Source of the DNA: Bacteroidaceae bacterium | GTDB lineage: Bacteria; Bacteroidota; Bacteroidia; Bacteroidales; Bacteroidaceae | Length of the DNA stretch: 64,000 bases | Direction of reading: 5' to 3' | Assembly (NCBI GenBank): GCA_017522915.1 | Contig: JAFWXX010000006.1 | Span: forward strand, 1 to 64,000 | In this document: positions 21,964-54,123 of the stretch, piece after piece | Numbering within the stretch: position 1 is the stretch's first letter | How the letters are laid out: every line of letters starts with the position of its first letter | Notes under the pieces: generated by a model | Databases searched by the model: none | Told to the model about the DNA's origin: nothing | What the model saw: the letters and a program-made list of their open reading frames with translations, nothing else | Made by a program: the position numbers and the translations under genes

Positions 21964-23280
21964 TTACTTAAGCAATTCCTTGATATTGCCGCTTAGTTGC
22001 ATAAGAGATATTTCGCAAATCTTGGTATCGTATTCAACCGACAGAAGCCTCTCTTCGGCATCAAGAAGGCTCTTCTGCGCCTCACGCATCTCGAAGCCCG
22101 AAAGGTCTCCGAGCATGTAACGCTCCTTGGCAATTTCGTGGTTCTCGCGTGCTGTGACTACATTGTGTTTCTCAAGGGCAAGCAGCTGGAGGTTGTTCTG
22201 GTATGCCTGCCAAAGGTTTCCCAGGTCGGCCTTAAGCGCGAGTTCAAGCTGGTTGCGCTGAAGCTTGGCATTCTCGATTTCAATCCTTGCATTGCGCTTT
22301 TCACGGCGACGGTTGCCGTCCCAAAGATTGAATCCTATTGTAATGCCGGCACTGCCGCCCCAATTGCTTCGGCGGAGATAGCTGTTCGTGTCATACTTGT
22401 TATAAGTGAAGTCATATCCTGCATTCAGCTTAACATAAGGATAGTTGCGCGAAATCACCTTCTTGTAGTCGAGCTGCGACAGACGGCTGTTCTGCTCGGC
22501 AAGCAGAAGGTTGGCATTGCTTGCCAGAGTTGAGTTCCAAAGGTCGGTGAAGTTGAGGAGAGCATTTGTCTCAATATCTTTCTCTTCTGTCTCTATCGGG
22601 GTATATACCTGGTCTATTGCCATCATTTCGTTGAGGGCGATGCGCGATGTCAGGACTACCTCTTGCTGTTTCATGTACTTTGCGCTGTCGGCATTGAAAT
22701 CTACCTTAGCCTGCTGGTAGTCAAGACGAGAGAAATTTCCTATATTGTAACGCTCCTCAACGATGCGCAAGCGTTCTTTTGACAACTTTACAGCATAGTA
22801 GTAGTTGGCAAGTCGGAGCCTCTGGTGCAGGAAGTTGTAGTACTCTGCTGCAAGGCCTGCCATGAAGTCTTCAATGGCAATGCGTGTTGCAGTCTCGCCC
22901 ATGCGCTCCATCTCTTTCAACTGTTTGTAGTTTGTGCTTATCTTGAATCCGTCGAATATGGTCCAATTGAGGCCGATTCCTGCATTCAGGGTATGGTCGA
23001 GCGAATTGCGCACCTCCTGTATCTCTCCTGTTGAGCGTACCTTGGAATCGCTGCTGCTCACCGCTCCCTTGTAGCCTGCATTCAAGTCAACGGTAGGCAG
23101 GTAGCCTGCATTCGCCAGAGTGGCATTGTTGCGTGCAATCTGCTCCTCATTGCGTACTATGCGTAGCGAGTAGTTGTTCTCAAGCCCTGTCTCCAGGCAT
23201 TTGCGGAGCGTATATGTCTGTGCGTCGGCAATTATGGCCATAGCCATAAGGCATGCCGATACTATTGCTTTTCTTCTCAT
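21964..23280 (-). CDS. TolC-family outer-membrane efflux channel (RND partner)
   Basis: The 438-residue protein has a signal peptide (cleaved near IIADAQ) and two TolC-type repeats of long coiled helices separated by strands, for instance YNIGNFSRLDYQQAKVDF and YMLGDLSGFEMREAQKSLLDAEERL. It would be the trimeric outer-membrane duct for the pump. Its start overlaps the stop of the RND gene by 4 nt (ATGA), indicating translational coupling in the adaptor-pump-channel operon. Length is normal. Confidence 0.94.
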   Translation of the reverse strand: MRRKAIVSACLMAMAIIADAQTYTLRKCLETGLENNYSLRIVRNEEQIARNNATLANAGYLPTVDLNAGYKGAVSSSDSKVRSTGEIQEVRNSLDHTLNAGIGLNWTIFDGFKISTNYKQLKEMERMGETATRIAIEDFMAGLAAEYYNFLHQRLRLANYYYAVKLSKERLRIVEERYNIGNFSRLDYQQAKVDFNADSAKYMKQQEVVLTSRIALNEMMAIDQVYTPIETEEKDIETNALLNFTDLWNSTLASNANLLLAEQNSRLSQLDYKKVISRNYPYVKLNAGYDFTYNKYDTNSYLRRSNWGGSAGITIGFNLWDGNRRREKRNARIEIENAKLQRNQLELALKADLGNLWQAYQNNLQLLALEKHNVVTARENHEIAKERYMLGDLSGFEMREAQKSLLDAEERLLSVEYDTKICEISLMQLSGNIKELLK

Positions 23281-26200
23281 TCTTCTTTCTCTTTACGTTC
23301 GGTTGATATATAGCTGTAAATTGCCGGTACGATATACATCGTGAGAATTGTCGATACAAGCATTCCACCTACTACTGCCGTACCCATGGCTATGCGCTGG
23401 TTGGCTCCTTCGGCAGTTGCAAAGGTAAGCGGAAGTAGGCCCAGGATTGTCGATACGCTTGTCATCAGAATCGGACGTAAACGCTGCATGGAGGCACTCT
23501 TTATGGCCTCAAACTTACTCTCTCCGTTCTCCTGTTTCTGGTTGGCGAACTCCACGATTAGGATACCGTTCTTCGCGACAAGGCCAATGAGCATTATTAT
23601 TCCAATCTGGCTGAATATGTTCATGGTTATTCCCCCGAAGTACATGAATATAAGTGCGCCGGCAATAGCCAAAGGCACTGTAAGCATTATGATGAACGGG
23701 TCCTTGAAACTCTCGAACTGTGCCGCGAGTATGAGGTATATGAGCACCAGTGCGAGGATGAATGCGAACATAAGGCTCGAAGAGCTCTCGCGGAACTCCT
23801 TGGAGTCACCTGCAAGTGCTGTGCGGAATGTATCGTCAAGCACCTCCTCGGCAATCTTGTCCATCTCGTTTAGTCCGTCTCCGATGGTCTTCCCTTCGGC
23901 AAGTCCGGCCGATATGGTAGCCGACAGGAATCGGTTATAGTGATACAGCTTAGGCGGTGTGACCGACTCGGCGAACTCTACAAGGTTGTCGAGCTGTATC
24001 ATGTCACCCTTGTTGCTGCGTATATATATCGATTTTACGCTCGACGGTGTGTTGCGCTGCTGGCGGTCAATCTGTCCGATGATTTCATACTGCTTGCCGT
24101 TTATGTAGAAATAGCCCATGCGCTGTCCGCTGAGTCCGTACTGGAGGGTCTCTGCCAGGTCGCGTACGCTTGCTCCCATTGTTCCGGCCTTGTTGCGGTT
24201 TATGTTCACGCGCATTTCGGGGCTGCTGAACTTGAGGTCGGCATCTGCCATCTTGAACACCGGGTTCTCGTGTACCTTCTGCAGGAACTCCGGGAGAACC
24301 TTCTGCAGCTTTTCAATGCTCGTAGCCTGTATTACATATTGTACAGGCATGCTTCCTCTTCGTCCGCCGAATGATGACTGCTGCTGTACGAATGCGCGCG
24401 CCTTGGTGCGTGTGCTCACAGCTTTGGTCAGCTTCTCGGCAACCTCCATCTGGGTATAGTCGCGCTCATCAAGGTCCTTTAGAGTAATCCTGATGTTTCC
24501 GCTTCCGCTCGATACCCGCGATGTTACCGAGGCTGCATCGGGTACTATTGAATCGACGAGCATTGTTATCTCTTCGGTGTAGTCGCGCATGTATTCGTAG
24601 CTCACTCCTTCTGCACCTCTGGTATTTACAGTAATCTGCGAACGGTCCTCCATGGGGGCCATTTCGGCAGGAATTTCGCCCCATAGATAGCCTATGAGCA
24701 CGAACATTACGAGTGTGACCGGTATTGCAATCCAACGGTGCTTGAGGAACGCTGCCAACGATTTCTCGTAATACATGTTTATGCCGGCAAAGAACGGTTC
24801 CGTCTTGCGGTAGAACCATTTCTGCTCCTTGCGCCTCTTCAGAATCTTTGTCGCAAGCATAGGAGTGAATGTGAGGGCTGCGAATGAGGAGATTATAACC
24901 GAACCTGCGACAACGAAGCTGAACTCGCGGAATAGCCTTCCGCTGGTTCCCTCCATGAAAACAATCGGAAGGAATACGGCTATAAGAGTGATTGTCGTGG
25001 ATATTACAGCGAAGAAAATCTCCTTTGCTCCCTCTATTCCGGCCTTGAAAGGCTTCATGCCCTGCTCGATGCGGATATAGATGTTCTCTGTCATCACGAT
25101 TGCGTCATCTACTACAAGGCCTACCGAAAGCACGATGGCAAGCATGGTAAGCACGTTTATTGAGAAACCGGCTACGTACATCACGAAGAATGCGCCGATT
25201 AGCGACACCGGAATGACAATACATGGAATGAGCGTTACGCGCCAGTCGCGCAGAAAGAGGAAGATGATTATTATCACAAGCACGAAAGCCTCATATACCG
25301 TGCTTTTCACCTCGTCTATTGATGCGCGTATGAACTTTGTGTTGTCGAAACCGTATGAGTATTGCACATCGTCCGGGAGGTCCTTCTTCATCATCTCCAT
25401 GCGCTCATAGACGGCATCGGCAATCTCAATGTGGTTGGCTCCCGGCTGCGGTACTACTACTACGCCCACCATCGGCACTCCGTTCATCTTCATGTAGCTC
25501 TTGATGTCGGCAGGGCCCAGTTCCGTCCGTGCTATGTCGTTTACACGTACCACGCTTCCGTTGCTCTCCTTGAGTATTATGTTTCCGAACTCCTGTGCGG
25601 TATGCATCTGTCCCATAGTGCGGAGTGTAAGCTCTACGGTGTTTCCTTCGATGCTTCCCGACGGCAGTTCGACATTCTCTTTTGTGACAGCATTCTTTAC
25701 ATCAATAGGAGTAAGACCGTATGCAGCCATTCTCACCGGGTCGAGCCATATACGCATTGAGTAGCGTTTCTCTCCCCATATCTGTACGCCGCTCACGTCG
25801 GGAATCGTTTGCAGCTGCTCCTTTACCGTAAGGTCGGCAATTTCGCTCAGTTCGAGCAACGAACGCTTGTCGCTCTGCACGGCCACCATGAGTATCGGCA
25901 TGGCATCTGCATCGGCCTTTGATACAGTAGGCGGGTCGCAGTCGCGTGGCAGGTAACGCTGTGCGCGAGATACTTTGTCGCGTACATCGTTGGCAGCAGT
26001 CTCAAGGTCAACCGACAGTTCGAACTCGACCGTGATTCGGCAGTTTCCCTGCTGGCTCACACTGGTCAGCGAACGTATTCCCGGAATACCGTTGATGTTC
26101 TGCTCCAGCGGCTCCGTTATCTGGTTTTCTATTACATCGGCATTGGCTCCGGCATAGCTGCAGCTCACCGATATTATCGGGTTATCGACCGAAGGGTACT

Positions 26201-26306
26201 CACGCACTCCTAACGTGTAGTATCCTATCATGCCGAAAAGGATTATTATGATTGTGAGTACCGTTGCAAGCACCGGCCTGCGGATACTTAGTTCTGAAAT
26301 ATTCAT
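23277..26306 (-). CDS. RND multidrug efflux permease (HAE1/AcrB-like)
   Basis: The 1009-residue inner-membrane protein has the RND layout of two sets of six membrane helices and two large periplasmic loops. The proton-relay aspartates lie in VLSVGLVVDDAIVMTENIY near residue 400, and the second half has the matching GIIMLIGLVAKNGILIVEFAN. The N-terminal signature ISELSIRRPVLATVLTI and the GQWGEK-like porter segments support the HAE1 (hydrophobe/amphiphile) class rather than the heavy-metal class. Substrates cannot be deduced. It is the middle gene of a three-gene operon, 21 nt after the adaptor. Confidence 0.97.
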   Translation of the reverse strand: MNISELSIRRPVLATVLTIIIILFGMIGYYTLGVREYPSVDNPIISVSCSYAGANADVIENQITEPLEQNINGIPGIRSLTSVSQQGNCRITVEFELSVDLETAANDVRDKVSRAQRYLPRDCDPPTVSKADADAMPILMVAVQSDKRSLLELSEIADLTVKEQLQTIPDVSGVQIWGEKRYSMRIWLDPVRMAAYGLTPIDVKNAVTKENVELPSGSIEGNTVELTLRTMGQMHTAQEFGNIILKESNGSVVRVNDIARTELGPADIKSYMKMNGVPMVGVVVVPQPGANHIEIADAVYERMEMMKKDLPDDVQYSYGFDNTKFIRASIDEVKSTVYEAFVLVIIIIFLFLRDWRVTLIPCIVIPVSLIGAFFVMYVAGFSINVLTMLAIVLSVGLVVDDAIVMTENIYIRIEQGMKPFKAGIEGAKEIFFAVISTTITLIAVFLPIVFMEGTSGRLFREFSFVVAGSVIISSFAALTFTPMLATKILKRRKEQKWFYRKTEPFFAGINMYYEKSLAAFLKHRWIAIPVTLVMFVLIGYLWGEIPAEMAPMEDRSQITVNTRGAEGVSYEYMRDYTEEITMLVDSIVPDAASVTSRVSSGSGNIRITLKDLDERDYTQMEVAEKLTKAVSTRTKARAFVQQQSSFGGRRGSMPVQYVIQATSIEKLQKVLPEFLQKVHENPVFKMADADLKFSSPEMRVNINRNKAGTMGASVRDLAETLQYGLSGQRMGYFYINGKQYEIIGQIDRQQRNTPSSVKSIYIRSNKGDMIQLDNLVEFAESVTPPKLYHYNRFLSATISAGLAEGKTIGDGLNEMDKIAEEVLDDTFRTALAGDSKEFRESSSSLMFAFILALVLIYLILAAQFESFKDPFIIMLTVPLAIAGALIFMYFGGITMNIFSQIGIIMLIGLVAKNGILIVEFANQKQENGESKFEAIKSASMQRLRPILMTSVSTILGLLPLTFATAEGANQRIAMGTAVVGGMLVSTILTMYIVPAIYSYISTERKEKEE

Positions 26307-26327
26307 ATCCTTGCCTTTTATGCAGTG

Positions 26328-27404
26328 TTACTCCATTGATGCTATCTCTACAACAGAGCCCTTGCGTAGCTGCAGTGTACCCGATGTCAGAATAGTGTCA
26401 CCTTCGCTCAGCCCTTTGAGAATCTGTACTTCGGCTTCGGTACGCAAGCCGGTCGTTACCTCAACCGGTTCGGCTTTCCCGCTCCTGTAGATGAAAACCT
26501 TGCTCTTGCCCATTTCGGGAACAATCGCTTCGGCAGGGACTGCGATTGCATTCTCAATCTCTTTCTGCTTAAGGCGTATGTCGGCATAAAGCCCCGGCAT
26601 CAGTTCAGCGTTGCTGTTGGGGTAGAGTGCCTTAACGGGGAGGTTGTGTGTCTCCGGATCGAGACTCGATTCCGTAGCATATACCTGGGCATGGTAGGTC
26701 TCGATGCTGCCGTTTACCTGAAAGGTGAGGTTTGTGCCTTTCTTCACTTCGTTGGCATATCGCTCCGCTACTGAGAACTCTACTTTAATAGGCTTTACCG
26801 ATGTGAGTGTAGCTATGACAGTTGTAGGGGATGCGTATGCGCCTACGCTCACCTGGCGCAAACCTATGACACCGTCGAACGGTGCACGGAGCTCAGTCAT
26901 TTCTATCTGCGCCTTTATCTTGTCGATATCGGCTTTCAAGGTTGCAAGTTCTGTCTTTACAATTTCAAGAGCCTCCTTGCTTACGGCATCACGCTGCAAC
27001 AGTGCATTCTGCCTATATACACGTTCCTCGGCAAGAGGCAGCTGAGCCTCAAGGCGTACAAGCTGTGCCTGGTATTGCTGGTCATTTACTTTGGCGAGAA
27101 GCATCCCTTTCTTGACATGGCTGCCCTCCTTGAAGTATATTCCTGTGATTTTTCCGGATGTCTCGAACGAGAGCTGTACCTCTTCGTCGGGGACAAGACG
27201 GCCTACAGCCAGTATTTCGTCAGTCAGCAAGTGGGGCTTGAGAATCTTTGCATTTACGCTCAGAACTTTCTTGTTTCCGCCCTTCGGCTTGTTCTCTGCT
27301 GCAGAGAGTTCCTCGTTCTCCTTAGGTGTAAGCTGGTAATAGCCGAATGCCCCAATGGCAATAGCCAGAGCAGCTATAAGACTCCATTTGAGTTTCTTGT
27401 TCAT
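26328..27404 (-). CDS. RND efflux periplasmic adaptor (membrane fusion protein)
   Basis: The 358-residue protein starts with an uncleaved membrane anchor (WSLIAALAIAIGAFGYYQL) and no lipobox. It then has the barrel-sandwich/lipoyl halves (GRLVPDEEVQLSFETSGKI and TELRAPFDGVIGLRQVSVGAY), a coiled-coil hairpin between them (about 115-165), a beta-barrel and a membrane-proximal domain (AVPAEAIVPEMGKSKVFI). It links the inner-membrane pump to the TolC channel and heads the operon. No repressor gene adjoins it, unlike many acrAB-type loci. Confidence 0.95.
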   Translation of the reverse strand: MNKKLKWSLIAALAIAIGAFGYYQLTPKENEELSAAENKPKGGNKKVLSVNAKILKPHLLTDEILAVGRLVPDEEVQLSFETSGKITGIYFKEGSHVKKGMLLAKVNDQQYQAQLVRLEAQLPLAEERVYRQNALLQRDAVSKEALEIVKTELATLKADIDKIKAQIEMTELRAPFDGVIGLRQVSVGAYASPTTVIATLTSVKPIKVEFSVAERYANEVKKGTNLTFQVNGSIETYHAQVYATESSLDPETHNLPVKALYPNSNAELMPGLYADIRLKQKEIENAIAVPAEAIVPEMGKSKVFIYRSGKAEPVEVTTGLRTEAEVQILKGLSEGDTILTSGTLQLRKGSVVEIASME

Positions 27405-30402: not shown

Positions 30403-31167
30403 ATGAAAAAGATATATTTCCTCTCTGATGCGCATCTCGGTTCGTGGGCTATCGAGCATAGCCGCACTCATGAACGCCGCCTGGTGTCGTTCCTCGACAA
30501 GATAAAGAACGAGGCTGCCGCAGTGTATATGCTCGGCGACATGTTCGACTTCTGGTATGAGTTCCGATATGCTGTCCCCAAAGGATATACACGTTTTCTG
30601 GGCAAGGTCTCAGAATTGACCGACAAGGGGGTTGAGGTACATTTCTTTACGGGAAATCACGACCAGTGGTGTCTCGACTACTTTGAGAAGGAGTGCGGAA
30701 TGACAATTCATCGTGAACCATGTCTCGTTGAGCTATACGGTAAGGAGTTCTTCCTTGCGCATGGTGACGAGTTCTCCGATGACAGGATGTATCGTTTCAT
30801 GCGTGCCGGATTCCGCAGCCGTTTCCTTAGGTGGATGTTCTCGATGCTTCATCCGCGCTGGAGTCTTTGGATGGGGCATGGCTGGGCGCGTCATAGCATG
30901 ATGGAGCACAAGGTCAAGGGGGATACTCCTTTTCAGGGAGAGGAGAAAGAGGATTCCGTAATTTTTGCAAAGGAGTATCTGAAGATGCATTCCGGTGTCG
31001 ACTGTTTTATATTCGGGCATCGGCACATTGATGAAGATTTCCCGTTGGGCAATACTTCCCGATGTATATTCCTGGGCGATTGGATTTCGACATTTGCATA
31101 TGTCGTGTTTGACGGAAATACGATAGAACGCAGATATTACATTGAGGGTGAGAGTAAGGAACTTTGA
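30403..31167 (+). CDS. lpxH: UDP-2,3-diacylglucosamine diphosphatase
   Basis: The 254-residue metallophosphatase has all family motifs: SDAHLG (8-13), LGDMFDFW (44-51), GNHD (84-87), HGDEFSDD (120-127) and FGHRHID near 205. LpxH hydrolyses UDP-2,3-diacylglucosamine to lipid X, the fourth step of lipid A synthesis, at the inner face of the cytoplasmic membrane. It lies 43 nt after the SufT-like gene. The phosphoethanolamine transferase that follows also concerns lipid A, though it looks separately acquired. Confidence 0.94.
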   Translation: MKKIYFLSDAHLGSWAIEHSRTHERRLVSFLDKIKNEAAAVYMLGDMFDFWYEFRYAVPKGYTRFLGKVSELTDKGVEVHFFTGNHDQWCLDYFEKECGMTIHREPCLVELYGKEFFLAHGDEFSDDRMYRFMRAGFRSRFLRWMFSMLHPRWSLWMGHGWARHSMMEHKVKGDTPFQGEEKEDSVIFAKEYLKMHSGVDCFIFGHRHIDEDFPLGNTSRCIFLGDWISTFAYVVFDGNTIERRYYIEGESKEL

Positions 31168-31181
31168 ATATTCAATTACAA

Positions 31182-31210
31182 ATAGTGCTTGTTGCATGGA
31201 GCAACCTATT
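31182..31210 (+). terminator. Weak hairpin between lpxH and the transferase gene
   Basis: GTTGC (31191-31195) pairs with GCAAC (31201-31205), and AATAG (31182-31186) with CTATT (31206-31210) around a one-sided bulge. There is no clean U-tract. It may be a weak terminator of the lpxH run. Confidence 0.35.
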
Positions 31211-31249
31211 GTACTCTTTTGAAATAATGAACATTATTTAAATATTACC

Positions 31250-32854
31250 ATGAAATTTACGTTCACTGTTTGTAGACAATTTGTAATCAATACTTTAAGG
31301 TTTGTTGCAAAACCTGTAATCTGTCAGCCTATATTCTCTTTTTTGTGCTTTATACTGCTCAATCTTCTGGATTTATTTGCTGATGGCGGCTTCCCTCTGT
31401 TAGGGCCTTTATTGAAAATAACTTTCGGTTGTTTTGTTTGTTATTGTTTATTGTTACCAACATTGTTTTTACCTTCTTTTATAAGAAGGATATACAAGTT
31501 TATGGTATTGCTTGTTGCAATTGTGCAGTTCATTGTCGATTTGTATTTATTAATAATTTATGGCGAGACTTTCAGTACGCTGCACGTCGATATGTTGGCC
31601 GCATTTGTTGCAACAAACCCTTCTGAAGCAATAGAGTATTTGAAATCGTATTTAACAATTGACAAAGTTTTTATAATATCTCTTTCTTTATCATTGTTAT
31701 TGGTGCTTTTTTACTTTTTGCGTAGAATAAAGTTTAAAGCAAATTTTTGGGGCGAGTGTGTTATTTCTATAATAGTCTTAGTCTCGGTATGTGTTTCTGG
31801 GATTGAATACAAGAATCTTTTGTTGGGTAATATCTATTTTTTATTCCAGACGGAGAGTTACGATCTAAAGGAGTACAGACAGAATCCAGAACTTATTTGT
31901 AGTGGTGAAAAACCTAAATACGTAGTACTTATTATTGGAGAAAGTTTCTCGAAAATGCATAGTTCACTCTATAGCTATAGCAAAGAGACCAATCCTCTGT
32001 TGTCAAAGTTGGCTGCAGATAGTCTTTTGTTTGTATGTAAGAACTCTACAAGTGCTTGTACTAAGACTATTCCTGCCATTAAATCTATAATGACATCATA
32101 TGTCAATGAAATGAGTGATAGTATTGACTGGTTTAAGTGTCTCACTCTTATTGAAGTTATGCAGAAAATTGATTATAAAGCAGTGTGGATATCTAATCAT
32201 TCTAGAGAGGGCTTTTTTGATAACGAGGTCGGTTGTTATGCTGCATTATGTGATTATTCTGTGTTTGCAAATGAACGGGATTATTATTCAAGGTATGACC
32301 AAGTGTTGTTACCGTTGATAGAAGAGTGTCTTAATGGCGATTCTACTCAAACATTTTTTGTAGTCAATATGTTAGGCTCTCACATATATTATAAAGACCG
32401 TTATCCTGAAAAATTCTCAAAATTTAAGTCAGAGGATTATATAGCTTCTTATCATCATTTACCAACAGAAAGCAGACAAACAATATCAGAGTACGATAAT
32501 TCAATACTATATAACGATTCGGTTGTGTATGAAATAATGAAAACTTTTGAGCAGCAAGATGCTATTGTTGTCTATATATCAGACCATGGTCAAGACATAT
32601 TCAATAGTTCTAATGATTATGCCGGTCACGCAATAAATGGTAATTATGTTTCTGAGCAAGTTGCAGTTCTGGTTCCTTTGTTGGTATACACATCTCCTAT
32701 ATTTAAGAAGAAGCATTCCTTGTTATACAAAAGAATAGAAAGTTCGGAAACAATGCCTTACCGTACAGATAGTATTATGTATACAATAATGGATGTCGCA
32801 GGCATTGAAACGGTGAACGGTGTGTCGTATAAGCATAAAAGTCTGTTAAAATAG
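31250..32854 (+). CDS. Phosphoethanolamine transferase (sulfatase fold, EptA/CptA-like)
   Basis: The 534-residue protein has about five membrane helices in its first 200 residues and then a periplasmic alkaline-phosphatase-fold domain: YVVLIIGESFSKMHSS (metal Glu), SACTKTIPAIKSIM with the candidate nucleophilic threonine near 271, VVNMLGSHIYY, and YISDHGQD with metal Asp/His near the end. Such enzymes move phosphoethanolamine from phosphatidylethanolamine to lipid A or other cell-surface sugars, lowering negative charge. The donor and target here are inferred. The gene is strikingly AT-rich: two 60-base lines I counted have 30% and 32% G+C, against 55% for a line of lpxH, suggesting horizontal transfer. 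A sibling LTA-synthase-like role is less likely. Confidence 0.85.
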   Translation: MKFTFTVCRQFVINTLRFVAKPVICQPIFSFLCFILLNLLDLFADGGFPLLGPLLKITFGCFVCYCLLLPTLFLPSFIRRIYKFMVLLVAIVQFIVDLYLLIIYGETFSTLHVDMLAAFVATNPSEAIEYLKSYLTIDKVFIISLSLSLLLVLFYFLRRIKFKANFWGECVISIIVLVSVCVSGIEYKNLLLGNIYFLFQTESYDLKEYRQNPELICSGEKPKYVVLIIGESFSKMHSSLYSYSKETNPLLSKLAADSLLFVCKNSTSACTKTIPAIKSIMTSYVNEMSDSIDWFKCLTLIEVMQKIDYKAVWISNHSREGFFDNEVGCYAALCDYSVFANERDYYSRYDQVLLPLIEECLNGDSTQTFFVVNMLGSHIYYKDRYPEKFSKFKSEDYIASYHHLPTESRQTISEYDNSILYNDSVVYEIMKTFEQQDAIVVYISDHGQDIFNSSNDYAGHAINGNYVSEQVAVLVPLLVYTSPIFKKKHSLLYKRIESSETMPYRTDSIMYTIMDVAGIETVNGVSYKHKSLLK

Positions 32855-32892
32855 AGAGGGATGAGGGTGACTCTAAAGTCCTATTCTTGAAT

Positions 32893-32931
32893 AAGCAATC
32901 CTTGTCATACTTATTTTGACGAGGATTGCTT
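32893..32931. terminator. Bidirectional terminator between convergent genes
   Basis: AAGCAATCCTTGTCA (32893-32907) and TGACGAGGATTGCTT (32917-32931) form a 15-bp stem with one wobble pair and a 9-nt loop. It separates the plus-strand transferase from the minus-strand tolC-like gene. Confidence 0.8.
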
Positions 32932-32954
32932 TCCTTGTAAAATACCCTCATTGT

Positions 32955-34202
32955 TTATTCTGCCAGCTGCATTGTGCCGAACTCCATGCTGAATCCTGTT
33001 GCACGCTGCAGTTCAACCCATGCTACAGCCTTGTTGAATAGTGTTTCGATATGTTCCCTTCTCATTTCGCTTTCGTTGCGCTCTACAATCAGGTAGTCGT
33101 GGAATGATATCTCCCCCAATTCGTATGCTCTCTTCTTGCCGGCAACAACACTTCTCATATCGCTAAGCATGTCGCTGGAGAAAGTAGTGCTCTGCTTCAG
33201 TGCCGAACCGAACTCATTGTATGCCTGTGTAACATCGGCCTGTACAAGAAGTCTGGCCTCTTCAATCTCTATGTTTGCCTGCTTTACAAGCAGTTCGTCA
33301 ATGATACGTGCGCCTTTGTTGAGATTCGAGAATTTGAGAGGTACGGCAATGCCTGCCTTTAAAGTTGTGAAGTCGGGGCGGGCACGGTTGTATGTCGCGC
33401 CTACTGTTACATTAAGGTCGGGGTAGCGCAGTGCCTTGTTGAACTTCTGTGTCGCAGATGCTATGTCTGCGCGGCCCAATGCCACAACGATGTCGGCACG
33501 GTGAGCCAATGCTTTCTCGATATAGCTGTCCAGTGGCAAAGCCTTTTCGCTCATCTCAAGCGTGCCGGTTCCACGGAGGTTCTCGGCTCCGCTGATGCTG
33601 CCCATGAAGTATCCCATCTTGATTGCGCTGTTGGTGAGCTGTGTCTCGGCATCGAGCATGCTGTTCTTTGCCATTCCTTGTGCCATACGGCTCTCAAGCC
33701 AGTCGCTTTCGGCGATATCGCCTCTCCTGAAGCGTATGCTGTCGTTGTCGGCAACACCGCTCAGCTCCTTGTATATCTCTTTTGCCTCGTCAAGAATCAT
33801 TTTGGCACGGAGGTGCTCAAGATAGGCGATTGTAGCATCGGCACGGAAGTTGCGCATGTACTCCTCAAATAGCGCAACACTTTGCTTGCGCTCGTTCTCG
33901 GCAAGGTCGATACGGCTACGGCGCACTCCGAATGTGAAACTTCGGCTCAGCTCAAGTTCAATTCCTTGACCGAGCTTCTTGTCCCAATCCTCGCTGTTGG
34001 TATATGTAAGTGCAATGGTGGGGTCGTTATAAACCTTTGACTTCTTCACTCCGGCATCAGCAATCTCAATGTCCATCTTGCGTGCGGCAAGTGCGATGTT
34101 TCCCGATAGTACACGTTCCATATACGCACCGTAGGATATTTCCTGTGCATGCATTGCTGCCGTTGCAAGGAATGCTATTGCCGATACTATAATTCTGTTC
34201 AT
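32955..34202 (-). CDS. Solitary TolC-family outer-membrane protein
   Basis: The 415-residue product from the ATG at 34202 starts with a signal peptide (MNRIIVSAIAFLATAAMHAQ); an ATG 14 codons upstream is in frame but would spoil it. It has the paired long helical repeats of TolC/CusC-type channels (for example RYPDLNVTVGATYNRARPDF and AYELGEISFHDYLIVERNE). No adaptor or pump gene adjoins it, so it must work with a pump encoded elsewhere, or is a remnant of a metal-efflux (CusC-like) locus. The gene is 86 nt downstream of the cca start side and is convergent with the transferase gene. Confidence 0.9.
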   Translation of the reverse strand: MNRIIVSAIAFLATAAMHAQEISYGAYMERVLSGNIALAARKMDIEIADAGVKKSKVYNDPTIALTYTNSEDWDKKLGQGIELELSRSFTFGVRRSRIDLAENERKQSVALFEEYMRNFRADATIAYLEHLRAKMILDEAKEIYKELSGVADNDSIRFRRGDIAESDWLESRMAQGMAKNSMLDAETQLTNSAIKMGYFMGSISGAENLRGTGTLEMSEKALPLDSYIEKALAHRADIVVALGRADIASATQKFNKALRYPDLNVTVGATYNRARPDFTTLKAGIAVPLKFSNLNKGARIIDELLVKQANIEIEEARLLVQADVTQAYNEFGSALKQSTTFSSDMLSDMRSVVAGKKRAYELGEISFHDYLIVERNESEMRREHIETLFNKAVAWVELQRATGFSMEFGTMQLAE

Positions 34203-34288
34203 CTTTTTTATTGCAAATTTCGTTAATGTAAACATTTCGTGCAATAGTGATTTGTGTCTATTGCATACTTGTATGTTGACAAATATTG

Positions 34289-46728: not shown

Positions 46729-49700
46729 TTATCTTGCTAATGAGAATTTCATGCTTACGCCAAAGTCGGTAGTAGTTGTCGGGTACGAGCTTGACGATAT
46801 GAGTGGTATTGTCTTCTGCCTGTCAAAGTAGAGGCTGAATGTAATTGTCTTGCTGTAGGCATAGTCGGCGGTAAGCGAATAGTTGAACGACTTGTTTCCG
46901 CTTGTCGCCTGGGTGGTTCCCTTGTCTATGCTGCGGCATAGTGCCGAAGTGTTCTTGAACGAGAAGTCGGCACGTATGTTTATGTCGTTTCCTTTCTTAC
47001 TCTCCTGCTTTCTCTTATTGGCCTTTCTGCCCCAGTCGAACAACTTGAAGTTCAATATCTTGTAACCGATATTGAATGCTACCTCACTGCTGTATGTCTC
47101 AACCATCTGTATTGCGGTAAGGCTTAGGTTGAGTATGCGTGTCTGTATGTACTTTGCGCCGATGGTGAGGTTGTTGTTTGTCGTGACATCGATACCGATA
47201 AGCGGTGAGAAACTCTCGTTTATCGAAACCGTACCGATGTTGTATCTGCTGCTTGGTATCGGCATGCCTGTCGTTGTATTGTTGACGAAACCGATGCCCT
47301 TGCTGTACTCCATGTAAGTGGCGAATGTGCTGTATGAGCCTACCGCATACACGCTCTTGTAGCCATGCTCAATGTTTACGCTCTTGAAATATTTCTTGAA
47401 GAACGGCAGTTTTGAGAGTCCGGAATATCTGATTTTCCAGTTCGGAAGCATTCTCAGCATGCTTGGGAATATTTCGCTTCCAGCAGCTCCTGTATATGCA
47501 TCCAGGAATGCCGGAATCATCACGTCGGCCGAGTATTTGTCAACAGCACCGTTTGCAGGGTCATACATCTGTCCTGCAAGGTTGCTTGATGCCGGATATT
47601 TTGTTCCTGCATAGGTGTTCTCCAACTTTGTGCGGTATGTTTCCAGCTTGCCCACAAAATCATCAAACACATCCGACTGATAATTGTTGTCGGCGTTGCC
47701 AGCTCCACCGAATGCATTTCCCAATGTTATTGTTGTCATGGAGAAGCCTCCCGACTCGCTGGTTGGCATGCCCTCGTGCATAAACTGTATTGTCTTGCTC
47801 TTGTTGCGTGTCCAGCTTGCATTAAGGTCTATCTTGAAATCCCTGAAAGGCTCAAGTGTCATTCGTATCTGCAAGTCCTCTGCCGCTGTTGTTGTTGCCT
47901 GTGCTGCAATACTGTCGTTCTTCAGCAGCCAGCTGTTGCGGTGAGCCTTTTTAAGGAAACTGTCTCCTGTGAGTCCGAATGCAAAGTCCAGTCCAGGTGC
48001 ATATATTCCGTTGACCTTGTTCTGTCCGAAGATGTCACCGGCCTCTGGGAGGAATCCCGGCAGGTTCATTGCATAGGCATTGGTGTAGGTGAATGAGATG
48101 TTGCGTACCATCATCAGCGCCCTTACAGGATACTGCATCATCTTGGCGAAGTTGCTTCTCTCATTATCCTTTATCTTTGGTGTTACGGTAATCTTCACAC
48201 TGATGGTATCCTGGTTCTTGATGAGGATATTGTTCTCGTCAATTACCTTGTACTTCAGTTTGTATATCTCGCCTTTCTTAGTGCGTGCAGTTATCTCAAG
48301 TTTCTTGTTCTTGAGGTTGTGTGCAAGCGTAACCGTAGTGTCTGTCTGCAACTTTATCTCCTTAGTGAATGGCTTCGGCTTCTTTACTTTCGGTTTCTTT
48401 ACAGGCTTTGTGCTCTTTTTCTTGTTGCTGTTTGCAAACCGCTTGTTCGTCTCTTCGAGGTACGGGAAGAGATTGTAGAACTTCTCAAGGTTGAATGTTC
48501 CTTTTATTGAGATGTTGCGCTTGTTCGAGATATTGTTTCCAAGATTGACATTGCCTATCTTGTTTCCTCTTTGCCAGTTGTATGTGGCAGAGTAGTCTAT
48601 ATCTGTTGTAAGCCATTCGAATATGGGCAACTTGTTCAACGGCAACGAATAGGATGCGTTGAAGCTCTGCTGGTAGCTTAACGGGCGTCCGAATTCCTTT
48701 ATGCTGCGTTTTACAGAATCTTTCCAAATGGCATACTCATTCGGGAATTTGTCCTTGTTTACCGGCAGGAACGGCTCTTCGATTTCGGCGTTCGTTCCGG
48801 TATTGAGGCTCATCCTGAGGTTAGTCGTCGGGTCCCACTTGATTGCGAGCGAGCGGTTCCAGTAGAACTGTTGGGAGAATGTAAGAGGTATTTCATCCCC
48901 GTTCGCTATGGCATTGATGTCGCGACGCTGTACCTCATGATAGTTTCTTGTCATGTCGGTGTTTATAGCCAATGACTGCGGCAGAGGGTTGAAGCCCCAA
49001 TCCTTAAGAATCTTTGCCCATTTTGACTTGCTCTTCATCTTTTCGAACGGCTTTATTGTCTTCAGCGGGCTAGCATAGTTGTAGCTTATTGAAGCCTTCC
49101 AGTTGAGCTTGTTTTCCCATGCAATGGTGCTTCCGCTATTGTTTGTGGTTGAACGCGAATAGCTGAACGAGAAGTTTGCCGGGTCGTATGGCATAGGTGT
49201 CTTGCTTGCAATGTTTATCCTTGCATTGCTTATGCTGAAGTTGCGCGATACGGAACGTACCTCCGCAATGTTCTTGAGAGAGTCTCTGCTCATTCCTGAA
49301 TATGAATCGAGAACATCGTCAAGAAGCAAATCCGAGTCGAACGGACTGTACAGCGGCGATGTCACCTCCTTTGTATATGAGTAATATACCGGAAGCGATA
49401 CCTTGAATGATGGCGGCAGCAGGCGTCCGAAATCCATAGTACCTGTCAATGAATAACGGTAATAGTCGTCGGTACGACGCGATGCCAGCTTGTCTTCGAT
49501 GCCACCGAATCCGGCAGTCTCTATTCGGCCTTGTGCCACGAATGTACCGATATCGCTCAGCTTTACATTAAGGTTGCCTTGTGCGGCCCAACCGCTCTTG
49601 TTGTTGAAACCCAAAAGGCGCATCTCGTTGACCCAGACGATTGCCGACTTGTTGTATGCAGTGTTGTTGCGTACACCAATCATCATCACCTTTATCTGTC

Positions 49701-52700
49701 CGAGTGAGGGGCTTCCGACAACACTTATCCTATTCTTGGGCTCATCCTCGTCGTACTCGCTGTATATGGTTGTGTTGGTTACGCCTTCGGCATTGTTGTT
49801 GCGTAGTGTGTTGCGTTTTACCTTTATGCCTGTAAGTTTGCTCAAAGGTATGTCAATCATGTTCTCCTGTGGCCATACAATGGTAGCTGCGGCAGCACTG
49901 TTGCCGTCGTACGAGCCGTGGGGGGTGATTGTCAAAGGCACCTCATACTCATAGTAGTTGCTCTTGTAGTCTGAGCCCAAACGTACGAACAGCGATACGT
50001 CGTTGCTCGATAGCTGGGTAGCATCAACCTCTAATGCCTCGGCATGCACGAAGAGCTGTATTCTCTCATATTGGCGTATGTCAAGGTTGCTCTTCTTATA
50101 GACAGCACGCGACTCCTTGCTTCCCAGGTTGTTTACATTAAGTGACAAAGCTTGCTCGTTGTCTTGTCTCAGCTGTGGCTGGCTTGGGTCAACGACGCGT
50201 GTGATGCCTGGAGGCAATACATAGTTTACAGGCTTTCTGTCGCCATGCTCTTCAATGCTTATTGCCGACATTGTGAAGTCGCCCGAAATGGTCGGTGCCG
50301 TATTGTTCTTCGAAGCAATAGGCTGCTGGTATGTTCTCCAGTCTCCGCGTATGAACTGCATTGTTGCAAAACGCAGTGTTATCGGCTTCTTGAACTGTGT
50401 CATGTACATACGTATGAAACGTATGGATGTGAAGTCGCGGATAGAACCGACGGCTTTCTCGTACTCGTCTATAGGAATACGGAACTTGTACCATGTAACG
50501 CTCTCTGTATTTCCGTTGCGCAGCTTTGTCGTTACCTGGCGTTTGTCCGTTATGTAGTTCGTGCCTACCTGCATTTCCTCCGGTTTAAGTGATATGCGGT
50601 ACTGGAAATAGTTCTCATACTCGTCCATGGTGAAGTCCTGGTTCGCGTCCTCGACATCCGGTGTAGTCTTTGCAGCACTGCTGAAGCTCTCTCCCGATGA
50701 ACTCGGTGAGTTGCCTTCGGTGTTGTTGAAGTACTTGTAACGTTCTATGATGCTCTTCTCTGCAGCATCATAGTCGCTTCCGCGGAAGTAGTGGTACTTG
50801 TCACCTGCAGGGTCGGCAAGAATGCTGTCATATACCTCCTGACGCACTCTTCCCTGAATCGCAGAGAGGTAATCCTTATATGCCGGGAAATTGGCCTCCT
50901 CTTCGCTGCTGAGGCCATTGTATCCGAGGTCCTGCTGTTCGCGTGTACCGGCATTGTTGTCGAATGCATAGACAAGGCTTGTCGTTGTAGGTATGCGGCC
51001 CCATGCTGTCTCTTCCGAACCGTAGTTGTTTCCTGTTGCCGGCAATCCGTTCTCATAGAACTTCTTTCCGTCTTTCAATACATCTTCCGATACTTCACCG
51101 AGGTTAAAGTAAAGCTCGCCGCCCATGCCTGTCTGGTCGTAAATGAACGGGTCAAGCATCCAGAATTCCAGATACTGTATATTGGCAGCCTCGAAATCGG
51201 TTGTCGATAGCTGGCGTGTAATACCGCCCCAACGCTTTGCCGGGTTGTTGAGCTTGCCGTCGAAATCAAGGTCGGTATCGAGGTTGTACGGGCCTCGCTC
51301 GTTAGGGTAGTATGTGACATTGAACAGCGACAATGTCGAAGACTCGCCGTATGTCGATTCCTTGTTGGGGTAGAGCTCTCTCTCATAGACCTCACGTACA
51401 TAGTGGTTCGAGAGTTGTTCTATATCGCTCTTTATATGTGCCGGGGTAAGTGACGAACTGCGCCTTGTAAAGAGCGGGTCAATGGTGTACCAGCTTATAT
51501 GAGCACGGTCGTATCCGGTACGTATATCGTTCGTCAGGTTGCTGTACGGCATGCTGCTGGGCAGTGAAGAGAGCATCCAACTCGATGCCGACTTTATATC
51601 TATTCCATTTTCTGTGCTTTCAAAATCGTCGATGTATGACGCTTCGCTCTGTACCTCCCCCGATGTTCCGGCCTGCAACTTTGCGAACTCGGCCGAAAGG
51701 CTTATCGAGGATGGTTCTGTGCAGCTGATGAACGGAAGCCTGTCTATCATGTTCGTAAGCCATTGGCTCTGCTTTTTCCAGCTAAGGTTGAATCCCCAAA
51801 GGAAGTTGCGCAGAGGCTCTGAGCCCATATCGACCTTTGTGGTCATAGGCTTCTCGGTAAGCGACATGAAAGTACCTCCGAACTTGAGATTCTCCGAATA
51901 GTCGTACATCCAGTTCAATCCCAAGAATGTCTTTCGCTGCATGTTGAATAGGGTGTTGCTCTCCAATGATACCTGTACATTTGTTCCGGCATCTATAATG
52001 CTTTGGTTGAGAATGGTAATGGTACCGGTTGAGTAATCGACCTGATAGTCGGTATTCTCAATGAGAGTGACACCTCCGGCAGTGACGACTACCGACCCAC
52101 GCGGAATGTTTGTAGAACCTGTCTGTATTACATTTGCTGCCGAACCTGTATATTCTCCAATCAGGTAGAACTTGTCTTTCTCGGCCAATTGCTTGGCAAC
52201 GGTCTTCGTTGAGTCGTACAGTTCCTGGAATATATACTTTTCAGCCAGTGCGTCATTGTTTATCTTCCCTTTCAGGTAACTTCCGAACGGTTCTACAGAC
52301 GGGAAGAATATCCTTCCGGTAGAAGTATCGACAGTATATCCGGGAATGAAGTCGAAAATGCCGTTAGGGTTCTCCTTGCTGTTGTTGCTGTCAAGACGGT
52401 CAAGGCCGAGCATCTGTATGAGCGGCTTGCTTTTAAGCATCTGCTCCGGGAGGTATGTGATGTTTGTTCCCAAGCTGTCGCTTGCATAATATACATCGAG
52501 CTTGAAGTCAGTGCTTTGCAGACTTCTGGTTCCCAGTGCATATACGTTCTTCATCATGAGGTCCCAGCAACCGTTTTTCGGCGAGCATGCGTTCGGCTTG
52601 ATAAGCTTTACGAACATGGTTGTCTTTGAGTCCTTTACGTCACTTGAAAACTCGCCGACCTGATATGTCTGTCCGCCGTACGTGTATTCGTACGCGACGG

Positions 52701-54123
52701 CAAGAACTTCATCGGCCCTTAATGCCGTCCTGAGCGAAATGAAACCGAGCTCCCTGTTCAGAGTATATTCTGAAGAGGATAGCAGTCTGGCATTTGACAG
52801 CTTTTCGTAGTCAATGCCTCCGCTTATTCCTGCAATGCCTCCGAGGACAGTATTCACCTGGTCGATGTCGCGTATTGCCGAATAGCCTGTATTCAACTGT
52901 GTATAAAGGCTGTTTGAATTGTTCGATGGCAATGCACTGCCTCCGGCAGGCGTCCATAGCGGGTTGCTGATACGTGTTCCTTCCGCCATATCGGTAAACG
53001 CTACAATGTTCCTCGGATTGTTGTAGTCGCTTGTCTTGTTTGTTATCCATACCTCAATGCGGTTGATGCTCACTCCCGACAGGATTGACGGCAACTGCGA
53101 CATGGAACGGTCGTAGTTGTCGCGGAAGTAATGGGCCAGGAAGAAGTGCTTGTTCTCCTCATAGTTGGTTACCTCAATTTCGAATGTGTTCAATTGTGTT
53201 CCGCCTTTTGAGCTCACAACTGTTGTATTCGAAGTCTTTTGTGAGACAACGGTCTGCAGCGTAAGTTTGCCGAACTGAAGATCGGCTCTTATACCGAACA
53301 GAGATGATGCACCTTTGATAAGGCTGGAGTTGGTCGGGAAGGTTACGTTTCCAGCCTCGATGAGCTTGATTACCTCATCCTCTTTGCCTTCGTACTTAAG
53401 GTTGATTTTTTGTGCGTCGTAGCTGAATGTGGCCTCAGTGTTGTAATTGAAGTCCATGTTCATCTTGTCTCCGACGCTTCCTCGTACATTGAGGTTAATC
53501 TTCTCTCCGAAGTCGAAACTGTTTGTCTTGCGGCTTCTGGCAGGAAGCGAAGGATTGTCAATAGTCTGTATTGAGTAGCCGATCTTTATTTCTGCGCTAC
53601 CCTGTGTCTTGATTCTTACACCGCCAGGGCCGAATATCTTTTCTGCCGGTCCAATGTCAAAATGCATGTCGGTGAAGTCGAACTTGCCCTTCTCTTTTGA
53701 ACTTACCCACTCCTCATAGTTCTTTTGGCGGAAGTACCGCTGCATGGAGCCGCGATGTTCCCATTTCGAGAACTCTTCGGGGGTGAGCAGTATCGGAGCT
53801 CCCAGCATACTTCTCTTGCCCAGCCTTGTGACTAAAGAATATGTGCTATCCTTGTCGTTGTAGATTGTATCTGTAACAATGTTTTGCGGAGTGCGCAGGT
53901 CGAGCGAATGATGTTCCATATCGTCAACAGTGGTCGGCGATATGTCCGAGATTGGGTAGCGGGCCTTTACCGTATCGCTGCCATATGTCTTTTCGAGCCT
54001 GGCCTTGTTCCTGTTCCTTATAGCCTGGCGTAGTGAGTCAACACGCGAATTGCTCTGCGCAAATATCCCCATACTTGCGAAGAGTGTTGCCAAAAGCAAT
54101 ATGAATGCGTGTTTTTTCATCAA
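46729..54123 (-). CDS. sprA: SprA/Sov, outer-membrane translocon of type IX secretion and gliding
   Basis: The 2464-residue protein starts with a signal peptide (MMKKHAFILLLATLFASMGIFAQ) and spans the full length of SprA. The N-terminal RPQNIV/GPAEKIFGPGGVRIKTQGSAEIKIGY and FDFGEKINLNVRGSVGDKMNMDFNYNTE blocks, DQVNTVLGGI in the first third and GDWRTYQQPI in the middle are all recognisable SprA-like blocks. SprA is the 36-strand barrel through which T9SS cargo leaves the cell. About residues 1894-1920 is a lysine/proline-rich insert. It follows ruvA by 17 nt and precedes the L,D-transpeptidase by 10 nt. It is consistent with the T9SS-type tail of the GH85 enzyme elsewhere in the window. Confidence 0.93.
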   Translation of the reverse strand: MMKKHAFILLLATLFASMGIFAQSNSRVDSLRQAIRNRNKARLEKTYGSDTVKARYPISDISPTTVDDMEHHSLDLRTPQNIVTDTIYNDKDSTYSLVTRLGKRSMLGAPILLTPEEFSKWEHRGSMQRYFRQKNYEEWVSSKEKGKFDFTDMHFDIGPAEKIFGPGGVRIKTQGSAEIKIGYSIQTIDNPSLPARSRKTNSFDFGEKINLNVRGSVGDKMNMDFNYNTEATFSYDAQKINLKYEGKEDEVIKLIEAGNVTFPTNSSLIKGASSLFGIRADLQFGKLTLQTVVSQKTSNTTVVSSKGGTQLNTFEIEVTNYEENKHFFLAHYFRDNYDRSMSQLPSILSGVSINRIEVWITNKTSDYNNPRNIVAFTDMAEGTRISNPLWTPAGGSALPSNNSNSLYTQLNTGYSAIRDIDQVNTVLGGIAGISGGIDYEKLSNARLLSSSEYTLNRELGFISLRTALRADEVLAVAYEYTYGGQTYQVGEFSSDVKDSKTTMFVKLIKPNACSPKNGCWDLMMKNVYALGTRSLQSTDFKLDVYYASDSLGTNITYLPEQMLKSKPLIQMLGLDRLDSNNSKENPNGIFDFIPGYTVDTSTGRIFFPSVEPFGSYLKGKINNDALAEKYIFQELYDSTKTVAKQLAEKDKFYLIGEYTGSAANVIQTGSTNIPRGSVVVTAGGVTLIENTDYQVDYSTGTITILNQSIIDAGTNVQVSLESNTLFNMQRKTFLGLNWMYDYSENLKFGGTFMSLTEKPMTTKVDMGSEPLRNFLWGFNLSWKKQSQWLTNMIDRLPFISCTEPSSISLSAEFAKLQAGTSGEVQSEASYIDDFESTENGIDIKSASSWMLSSLPSSMPYSNLTNDIRTGYDRAHISWYTIDPLFTRRSSSLTPAHIKSDIEQLSNHYVREVYERELYPNKESTYGESSTLSLFNVTYYPNERGPYNLDTDLDFDGKLNNPAKRWGGITRQLSTTDFEAANIQYLEFWMLDPFIYDQTGMGGELYFNLGEVSEDVLKDGKKFYENGLPATGNNYGSEETAWGRIPTTTSLVYAFDNNAGTREQQDLGYNGLSSEEEANFPAYKDYLSAIQGRVRQEVYDSILADPAGDKYHYFRGSDYDAAEKSIIERYKYFNNTEGNSPSSSGESFSSAAKTTPDVEDANQDFTMDEYENYFQYRISLKPEEMQVGTNYITDKRQVTTKLRNGNTESVTWYKFRIPIDEYEKAVGSIRDFTSIRFIRMYMTQFKKPITLRFATMQFIRGDWRTYQQPIASKNNTAPTISGDFTMSAISIEEHGDRKPVNYVLPPGITRVVDPSQPQLRQDNEQALSLNVNNLGSKESRAVYKKSNLDIRQYERIQLFVHAEALEVDATQLSSNDVSLFVRLGSDYKSNYYEYEVPLTITPHGSYDGNSAAAATIVWPQENMIDIPLSKLTGIKVKRNTLRNNNAEGVTNTTIYSEYDEDEPKNRISVVGSPSLGQIKVMMIGVRNNTAYNKSAIVWVNEMRLLGFNNKSGWAAQGNLNVKLSDIGTFVAQGRIETAGFGGIEDKLASRRTDDYYRYSLTGTMDFGRLLPPSFKVSLPVYYSYTKEVTSPLYSPFDSDLLLDDVLDSYSGMSRDSLKNIAEVRSVSRNFSISNARINIASKTPMPYDPANFSFSYSRSTTNNSGSTIAWENKLNWKASISYNYASPLKTIKPFEKMKSKSKWAKILKDWGFNPLPQSLAINTDMTRNYHEVQRRDINAIANGDEIPLTFSQQFYWNRSLAIKWDPTTNLRMSLNTGTNAEIEEPFLPVNKDKFPNEYAIWKDSVKRSIKEFGRPLSYQQSFNASYSLPLNKLPIFEWLTTDIDYSATYNWQRGNKIGNVNLGNNISNKRNISIKGTFNLEKFYNLFPYLEETNKRFANSNKKKSTKPVKKPKVKKPKPFTKEIKLQTDTTVTLAHNLKNKKLEITARTKKGEIYKLKYKVIDENNILIKNQDTISVKITVTPKIKDNERSNFAKMMQYPVRALMMVRNISFTYTNAYAMNLPGFLPEAGDIFGQNKVNGIYAPGLDFAFGLTGDSFLKKAHRNSWLLKNDSIAAQATTTAAEDLQIRMTLEPFRDFKIDLNASWTRNKSKTIQFMHEGMPTSESGGFSMTTITLGNAFGGAGNADNNYQSDVFDDFVGKLETYRTKLENTYAGTKYPASSNLAGQMYDPANGAVDKYSADVMIPAFLDAYTGAAGSEIFPSMLRMLPNWKIRYSGLSKLPFFKKYFKSVNIEHGYKSVYAVGSYSTFATYMEYSKGIGFVNNTTTGMPIPSSRYNIGTVSINESFSPLIGIDVTTNNNLTIGAKYIQTRILNLSLTAIQMVETYSSEVAFNIGYKILNFKLFDWGRKANKRKQESKKGNDINIRADFSFKNTSALCRSIDKGTTQATSGNKSFNYSLTADYAYSKTITFSLYFDRQKTIPLISSSSYPTTTTDFGVSMKFSLAR

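Follow-up and report, generated by a model that had tools for sequence, protein, structure and literature searches.

Results

An open frame coding for a putative phosphoethanolamine transferase lies directly downstream of an lpxH-like gene, beside which the sequence-only reading had placed it, in the window (the whole 64-kb stretch of DNA analysed), and is convergent with a gene for an outer membrane efflux protein (Table 1). The frame is intact and starts with ATG. Its left neighbour scored 92.5 and 97 bits against the LpxH models, whose cut-offs are 190 and 134, and thus falls below the equivalog cut-offs; we refer to it as lpxH for brevity. The AT-rich spacer between the two genes is not predicted to contain a strong terminator (z -1.95; 7 of 200 shuffles fold equally well), and its last bases before the ATG resemble, by eye, those of the copies found after lpxH in two other genomes of the genus, G003 and G031. 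On the far side of the gene, the stretch from 32850 to 32954, which holds a terminator-like hairpin, folds far better than its shuffles (z -4.85; 0 of 200 as good). A search for flanking repeats at the edges of the gene returned short matches and this hairpin only, with no convincing target-site duplication, and no mobile gene lies between the gene's neighbours within the 64-kb window. The genome itself, 91.7% complete, holds a single copy of the transferase at E 0.001 and four further places with a Sulfatase domain.

Two genes of the outer-membrane-efflux type occur within 12 kb, at 21964-27404 and 32955-34244, one of which reads as accompanied by an RND pump and an adaptor while the other stands alone after the transferase. 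In many members of the genus, the lone efflux gene, cca and a small gene were not found between lpxH and ackA. Elsewhere in the window, positions 46729-54123 form one open frame of 2464 aa with 47.9% G+C.

Table 1. Features at the transferase locus, in window coordinates
Feature	Position	Strand	Properties and basis
Putative phosphoethanolamine transferase gene, EptC/EptA kind	31250-32854	+	534 aa, 33.3% G+C
Predicted N-terminal membrane part, residues 1-205	31250-31864	+	Model mean pLDDT 90.6; alignment to EptA 5fgn
Predicted catalytic domain, residues 206-534	31865-32851	+	PF00884, invariant columns, EptC alignment
lpxH-like gene, left edge of slot	30403-31167	+	Present in 42 of 44 genus genomes
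Outer membrane efflux protein (OEP) gene, right edge of slot	32955-34244	-	PF02321, E 2e-35
AT-rich spacer, lpxH to transferase gene	31168-31249	+	26.8% G+C; composition, folding
Terminator-like hairpin, 15-nt arms, 93% complementary	32893-32931		Between transferase gene and convergent efflux gene

At E 0.001 the only Pfam domain in the protein is Sulfatase (PF00884), at residues 224-519 (E 2.5e-39; 135.8 bits against a cut-off of 25). The best NCBIfam model is CptA, followed by EptA models, and the score lies under the cut-off for every NCBIfam phosphoethanolamine-transferase model that the protein matches: 200.4 against 404 and 165 against 900 bits for the CptA models NF007933 and NF012179; 99.3, 96.4 and 72.6 against 561, 500 and 660 bits for the EptA models NF007160, NF028537 and NF008619; and at most 62.8 against 1075 or more for the MCR family models. 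As the protein scores under the curated CptA and EptA cut-offs, its acceptor may be a lipid A phosphate, a core sugar or another group. In the PDB, all 17 single-sequence matches are phosphoethanolamine transferases, three of them named by their entry titles only, and the top match is E. coli EptC (E 4e-32 with the single sequence, 7.5e-92 with a profile); a profile of 37 relatives gives 312 bits to EptC and 198 bits to full-length EptA. Across 37 aligned sequences, drawn from several phyla by record title, E231, T273, H378, D445 and H446 are invariant and H460 nearly so, and the invariant catalytic columns also hold in an alignment of seven sequences. T273 aligns with a threonine of EptC in the PDB alignment. 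We take T273 to be the nucleophile, E231, D445 and H446 to be metal ligands, and H378 to be a helper.

The AlphaFold2 model is confident (mean pLDDT 90.6, pTM 0.86) and consists of a helical N-terminal part, with long helices at residues 5-25, 27-44, 51-72, 76-104, 137-157 and 166-185 that would cross the membrane, and a catalytic domain. Its best fold match in VIA-align is E. coli EptC (6a82; Z 39.5, rmsd 2.0 over 313 residues, 26% identity), and full-length EptA (5fgn) aligns over 456 residues, within residues 25-534 (Z 35.0, rmsd 5.6, 17% identity). Within the families listed among the fold matches, the 18 best rows are phosphoethanolamine transferases and general sulfatases start at Z 26.7. 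The N-terminal model EptA_B_N (PF08019) reached only 13.4 bits (E 0.071) against its cut-off of 22.3, but a divergent domain of this kind is possible, since the predicted membrane part aligns structurally to EptA despite that score. With the Sulfatase domain, the catalytic residues and the confident model in agreement, the transferase reaction is a well-founded assignment, and the protein is very probably a phosphoethanolamine transferase of the EptC/EptA kind, as the sequence-only reading had proposed. Judged by domain, predicted fold, threonine nucleophile and metal site, it belongs to the phosphoethanolamine transferases with a Sulfatase domain in the wide sense (EptA/EptB/EptC).

The gene stands out sharply in composition. 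Its G+C content compares with 47.9% for the rest of the window, 48.5% for lpxH and 49.6% for the efflux gene, so that the sequence-only reading, which had put the gene at 30-32% and its neighbours at 53-55%, was right about the outlier and overstated the gap. In a table of 39 genes taken as real, with positions hand-picked from the ORF list, it has the lowest GC, the lowest third-position GC (GC3, 31.2%) and the most deviant codon usage, lying 6.8 sd (GC) and 5.7 sd (GC3) under the other 38 genes, which average 48.9% (sd 2.3) and 55.6% (sd 4.3). The lowest-GC stretch of 1605 bases in the window sits on it (33.0%, against 41.4% for the next non-overlapping one), and its single 60-base lines range from 23 to 42% G+C. 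Membrane-protein composition can be ruled out as the cause, because both halves of the gene are AT-rich (GC3 34.1% in the membrane part and 29.4% in the catalytic part), the soluble half equally so. When 322 kb of this genome (GC 46.5%) were sampled, 3 of 192 ORFs of 200 or more aa fell below 36% GC, one being a masked N run and two cut by the ends of stretches. The gene is therefore a real composition outlier near the 1% tail, and not unique.

We surveyed 44 genomes of the genus and 295 genomes drawn over the order. A seven-row profile matches 13 of the 44 at 1e-60, 10 of those at 1e-129 or better; among the 295, only the gene's own genome matches better than 1e-73. Eight of those ten genomes carry ten copies, three of them partial, which form one clade in a maximum-likelihood tree with an ultrafast-bootstrap support of 100, and the copies of G012 and G063 fall outside it; a second tree comprised 22 sequences, a chosen part of the first tree's 41 plus G063. 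Among the best 80 of 180 relatives in the named collection, nine loci of the genus are 38-61% identical to the protein, and the best relatives from outside it reach 36% and, over 299 residues, 37%. The named collection, the order genomes, plasmids (2431 records, none as high as 60% identity; 20.6-29.6% for the 20 that were listed), phages (15 records, 22-28% identity) and viral contigs (52 pattern stretches, none a relative) yielded nothing closer from beyond the genus, and within these collections the clade is confined to one genus. The members of that genus are uncultured Bacteroidales, several from the guts of ruminants (water buffalo, yak, sheep, goat and roe deer), the others with no host in the record title.

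Carriage within the genus is patchy. In a tree built from nine flanking proteins, of which several are missing in many genomes, the carriers are scattered, and for six of the eight genomes with a clade copy the closest sisters in the sample have none; most genus genomes are incomplete drafts, and some of these absences may be gaps. Nine genus genomes without the clade gene have a more distant relative in frames of 512-612 aa at 23-28% identity (L021-L025 and L027-L030), and no such relative was found in the gene's own genome at E 0.001. One copy in G036 (contig C43, L061:8001-9602) has a single in-frame TAG, and one in G005 (contig C161, L069:6-971) is without the stretch matching about residues 397-421; both look damaged, which fits frequent loss in the genus, draft errors being possible.

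The copies recur at a few chromosomal places. Of the 42 genus genomes with lpxH, 17 have it on the same stretch as the efflux gene. In three of these (the window's own genome, G003 and G031) the transferase separates the two; 12 have a spacer of 19-76 bases only, as measured between tblastn hit ends and with hairpins there seen by eye, and two hold other cargo, a DUF4419 gene (L078:4235-5698) and a protein kinase-Sel1 gene (L091:4056-6512). The place after lpxH may thus be a variable slot. At L079:6888-12411, also after lpxH, runs a series of genes that includes two O-antigen-ligase-like (Wzy_C) genes. G005 is likely a fourth carrier in this slot, since its transferase adjoins the efflux gene at the start of one contig and its lpxH lies near the end of another. 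A second slot, between a nagB-like gene and dnaE, is complete in G036, divided between two contigs in G035, and partial in G061 (nagB side, with a different open frame beyond) and G005 (dnaE side only). In G022 the transferase precedes ackA, three genes further along from lpxH; G036 carries a second copy at another place.

Slot and ancestry disagree. The four copies in the lpxH slot are not a clade, their forced grouping being rejected (delta lnL 106, AU p 1.9e-7): the G031 copy groups with the copies of the nagB/dnaE slot (support 90-96), and the G036 copy from elsewhere groups with the window gene and that of G005 (support 99-100). In the nearest relative, G064, whose lpxH is 89% identical, the slot is empty. 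Patchy carriage, this empty slot and the conflict between tree and slot suggest that members of the genus have gained, lost or exchanged the gene.

Low GC is widespread among the relatives. Seven of the ten clade copies, the window gene included, lie 10.8-16.2 points below their flanks in GC, and four of these seven occupy, or probably occupy, the slot after lpxH; two others lie about 6 points below and one (G061) is equal. Outside the clade, the copies of G012 and G063 are 5.9 and 0.9 points below. In the wider family, 63 of 79 named loci have a lower GC than their flanks; the deficit exceeds 5 points in 29 of them and 10 points in 17. Counting only differences from the flanks of over half a point, a set of 41 family loci has 34 on the low side and 3 on the high side. 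Because most related copies examined are AT-rich, an AT-rich composition alone is not a sign of recent foreign origin. G035 and G061, the one sister-species pair that shares a slot and also pairs in the gene tree, have copies of 41.6 and 48.1% GC, whereas carriers whose nearest sampled sisters lack the gene have lower values, 33-39%. The idea that long lonely branches are the low-GC copies found no support, as the correlation runs the opposite way (Spearman 0.46 over 41 loci, p 0.002; 0.38 over the 35 loci with flank GC of 43% or more, p 0.02; 0.31 over the 29 with 47% or more, p 0.10).

Third bases of fourfold codons are identical between clade copies at a fraction of 0.15-0.45, against 0.25-0.33 expected at saturation, and in lpxH and cca at 0.31-0.39, against 0.25-0.26. 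Silent third positions between clade copies are thus at or near saturation, as in lpxH and cca, and a copy inherited from the ancestor of the genus has had time to approach the composition of its host. It follows that a donor composition older than the species splits should be gone unless something maintains it.

Discussion

A gene that stands out in composition is usually labelled foreign, yet the relatives of this one have the same slot and low GC. We consider it, with a probability of about 0.6, an old accessory gene of the genus whose low GC is a common trait of its clade and not the mark of one recent foreign arrival. It would be carried by a minority of the species and kept in a few slots (after lpxH, or next to nagB and dnaE), with frequent losses and occasional moves or exchanges from one slot to another. 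The repeated use of two particular slots, the restriction of the clade to this genus and the want of a donor or a mobile context in the collections searched, and the frequency of low GC in the family weakly favour a resident family with a gene-specific AT bias over repeated later imports. Against it speak the higher GC of the G035/G061 pair beside the lower GC of the lone carriers, which recent separate arrivals fit better than an intrinsic bias, and the empty slot of G064.

These same observations would be expected if the gene had instead arrived repeatedly and recently, by separate transfers from an AT-rich source outside the sample, a lineage or a mobile element, into a slot that tolerates insertions, and had then drifted toward host GC, an account that we hold to be possible though less probable. 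It would explain why carriers are scattered over the species tree with sisters that mostly lack the gene, why the lpxH/efflux slot holds other cargo in two relatives, why gene tree and slot conflict, and why the one vertically paired lineage has the higher GC; GC deficits that range from 16 points to none resemble staged amelioration, and the 34 of 41 family loci below their flanks are what an AT-rich source would leave. Set against this account are the lack of a donor, with nothing closer outside the genus in the collections searched, the use of the same two slots again and again, and, at the window locus, the lack of a convincing target-site repeat and of a mobile gene between the neighbours.

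Within the preferred reading of an old resident gene, we tentatively suggest, as a rather doubtful extension, that low GC is actively kept: a gene-specific pressure, for example through transcription, silencing or the expression of surface-modifying genes, would hold about 35% G+C in hosts of about 48%, in recurring chromosomal slots and persisting even after silent-site turnover. If so, composition could not serve to recognise foreign origin in this class of gene.

A single recent acquisition by this species from a distant donor, which the sequence-only reading implies with "probably acquired", is unlikely, given the genus clade and its low-GC members. Outlying GC and codon usage, one copy in the genome and the empty slot of G064 are consistent with it, but the nearest homologues that we found come from its own genus, where some occupy the same slot and most share the low GC, and the collections searched held no closer source outside it; a tree placing the gene in its own group together with low-GC orthologues, which that reading had named as evidence against itself, is what we obtained at the level of the genus. 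What survives of the claim is some gain, loss or exchange among members of the genus, suggested by patchy presence there (8 of 44 genus genomes), the empty slot and the conflict between tree and slot. Least probable of all is that the protein is another enzyme of the same fold, a sulfatase, a phosphoglycerol transferase of the lipoteichoic-acid type or a phosphonate hydrolase: sulfatases (Z up to 26.7) and a lipoteichoic acid synthase have this fold, but the 18 best fold rows, the 17 PDB matches and the threonine aligned with that of EptC argue for a phosphoethanolamine transferase.

If it works like the EptC and EptA enzymes of known structure, the product would be an inner-membrane enzyme in which Thr273, at a zinc site of E231, D445 and H446 with helper histidines on the periplasmic side, takes phosphoethanolamine from phosphatidylethanolamine. 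The group would then be passed to a lipopolysaccharide acceptor, whether lipid A phosphate, core sugar or other, leaving a less negative surface charge. Such an accessory surface-modifying enzyme, carried by a minority of species in a gut-associated genus, could influence how sensitive they are to host peptides and polymyxins.

The sequence-only reading took lipid A to be the target, but the closest solved fold is that of EptC, and matches to EptA are weaker. Among known systems, E. coli EptC, which we take to be identical with CptA and to act on the lipopolysaccharide core, shares the fold of the catalytic domain and the aligned nucleophile threonine, and CptA is the best NCBIfam model; the protein nevertheless scores under the curated cut-offs, and its best stretch in the CptA model begins at residue 218, past the membrane part. 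One study (PMC12669032) reports on a Bacteroidales protein placed in the eptA family, likened to ours by that assignment, whose insertion mutants showed raised sensitivity to half of the xenobiotics tested. With Neisseria EptA (5fgn) and the MCR-type enzymes, the whole predicted architecture can be aligned, membrane part included, but identity is 17% and model scores, at 35 to 99 bits, fall short of cut-offs that start at 500, and the gene described here sits in a chromosomal slot between conserved genes.
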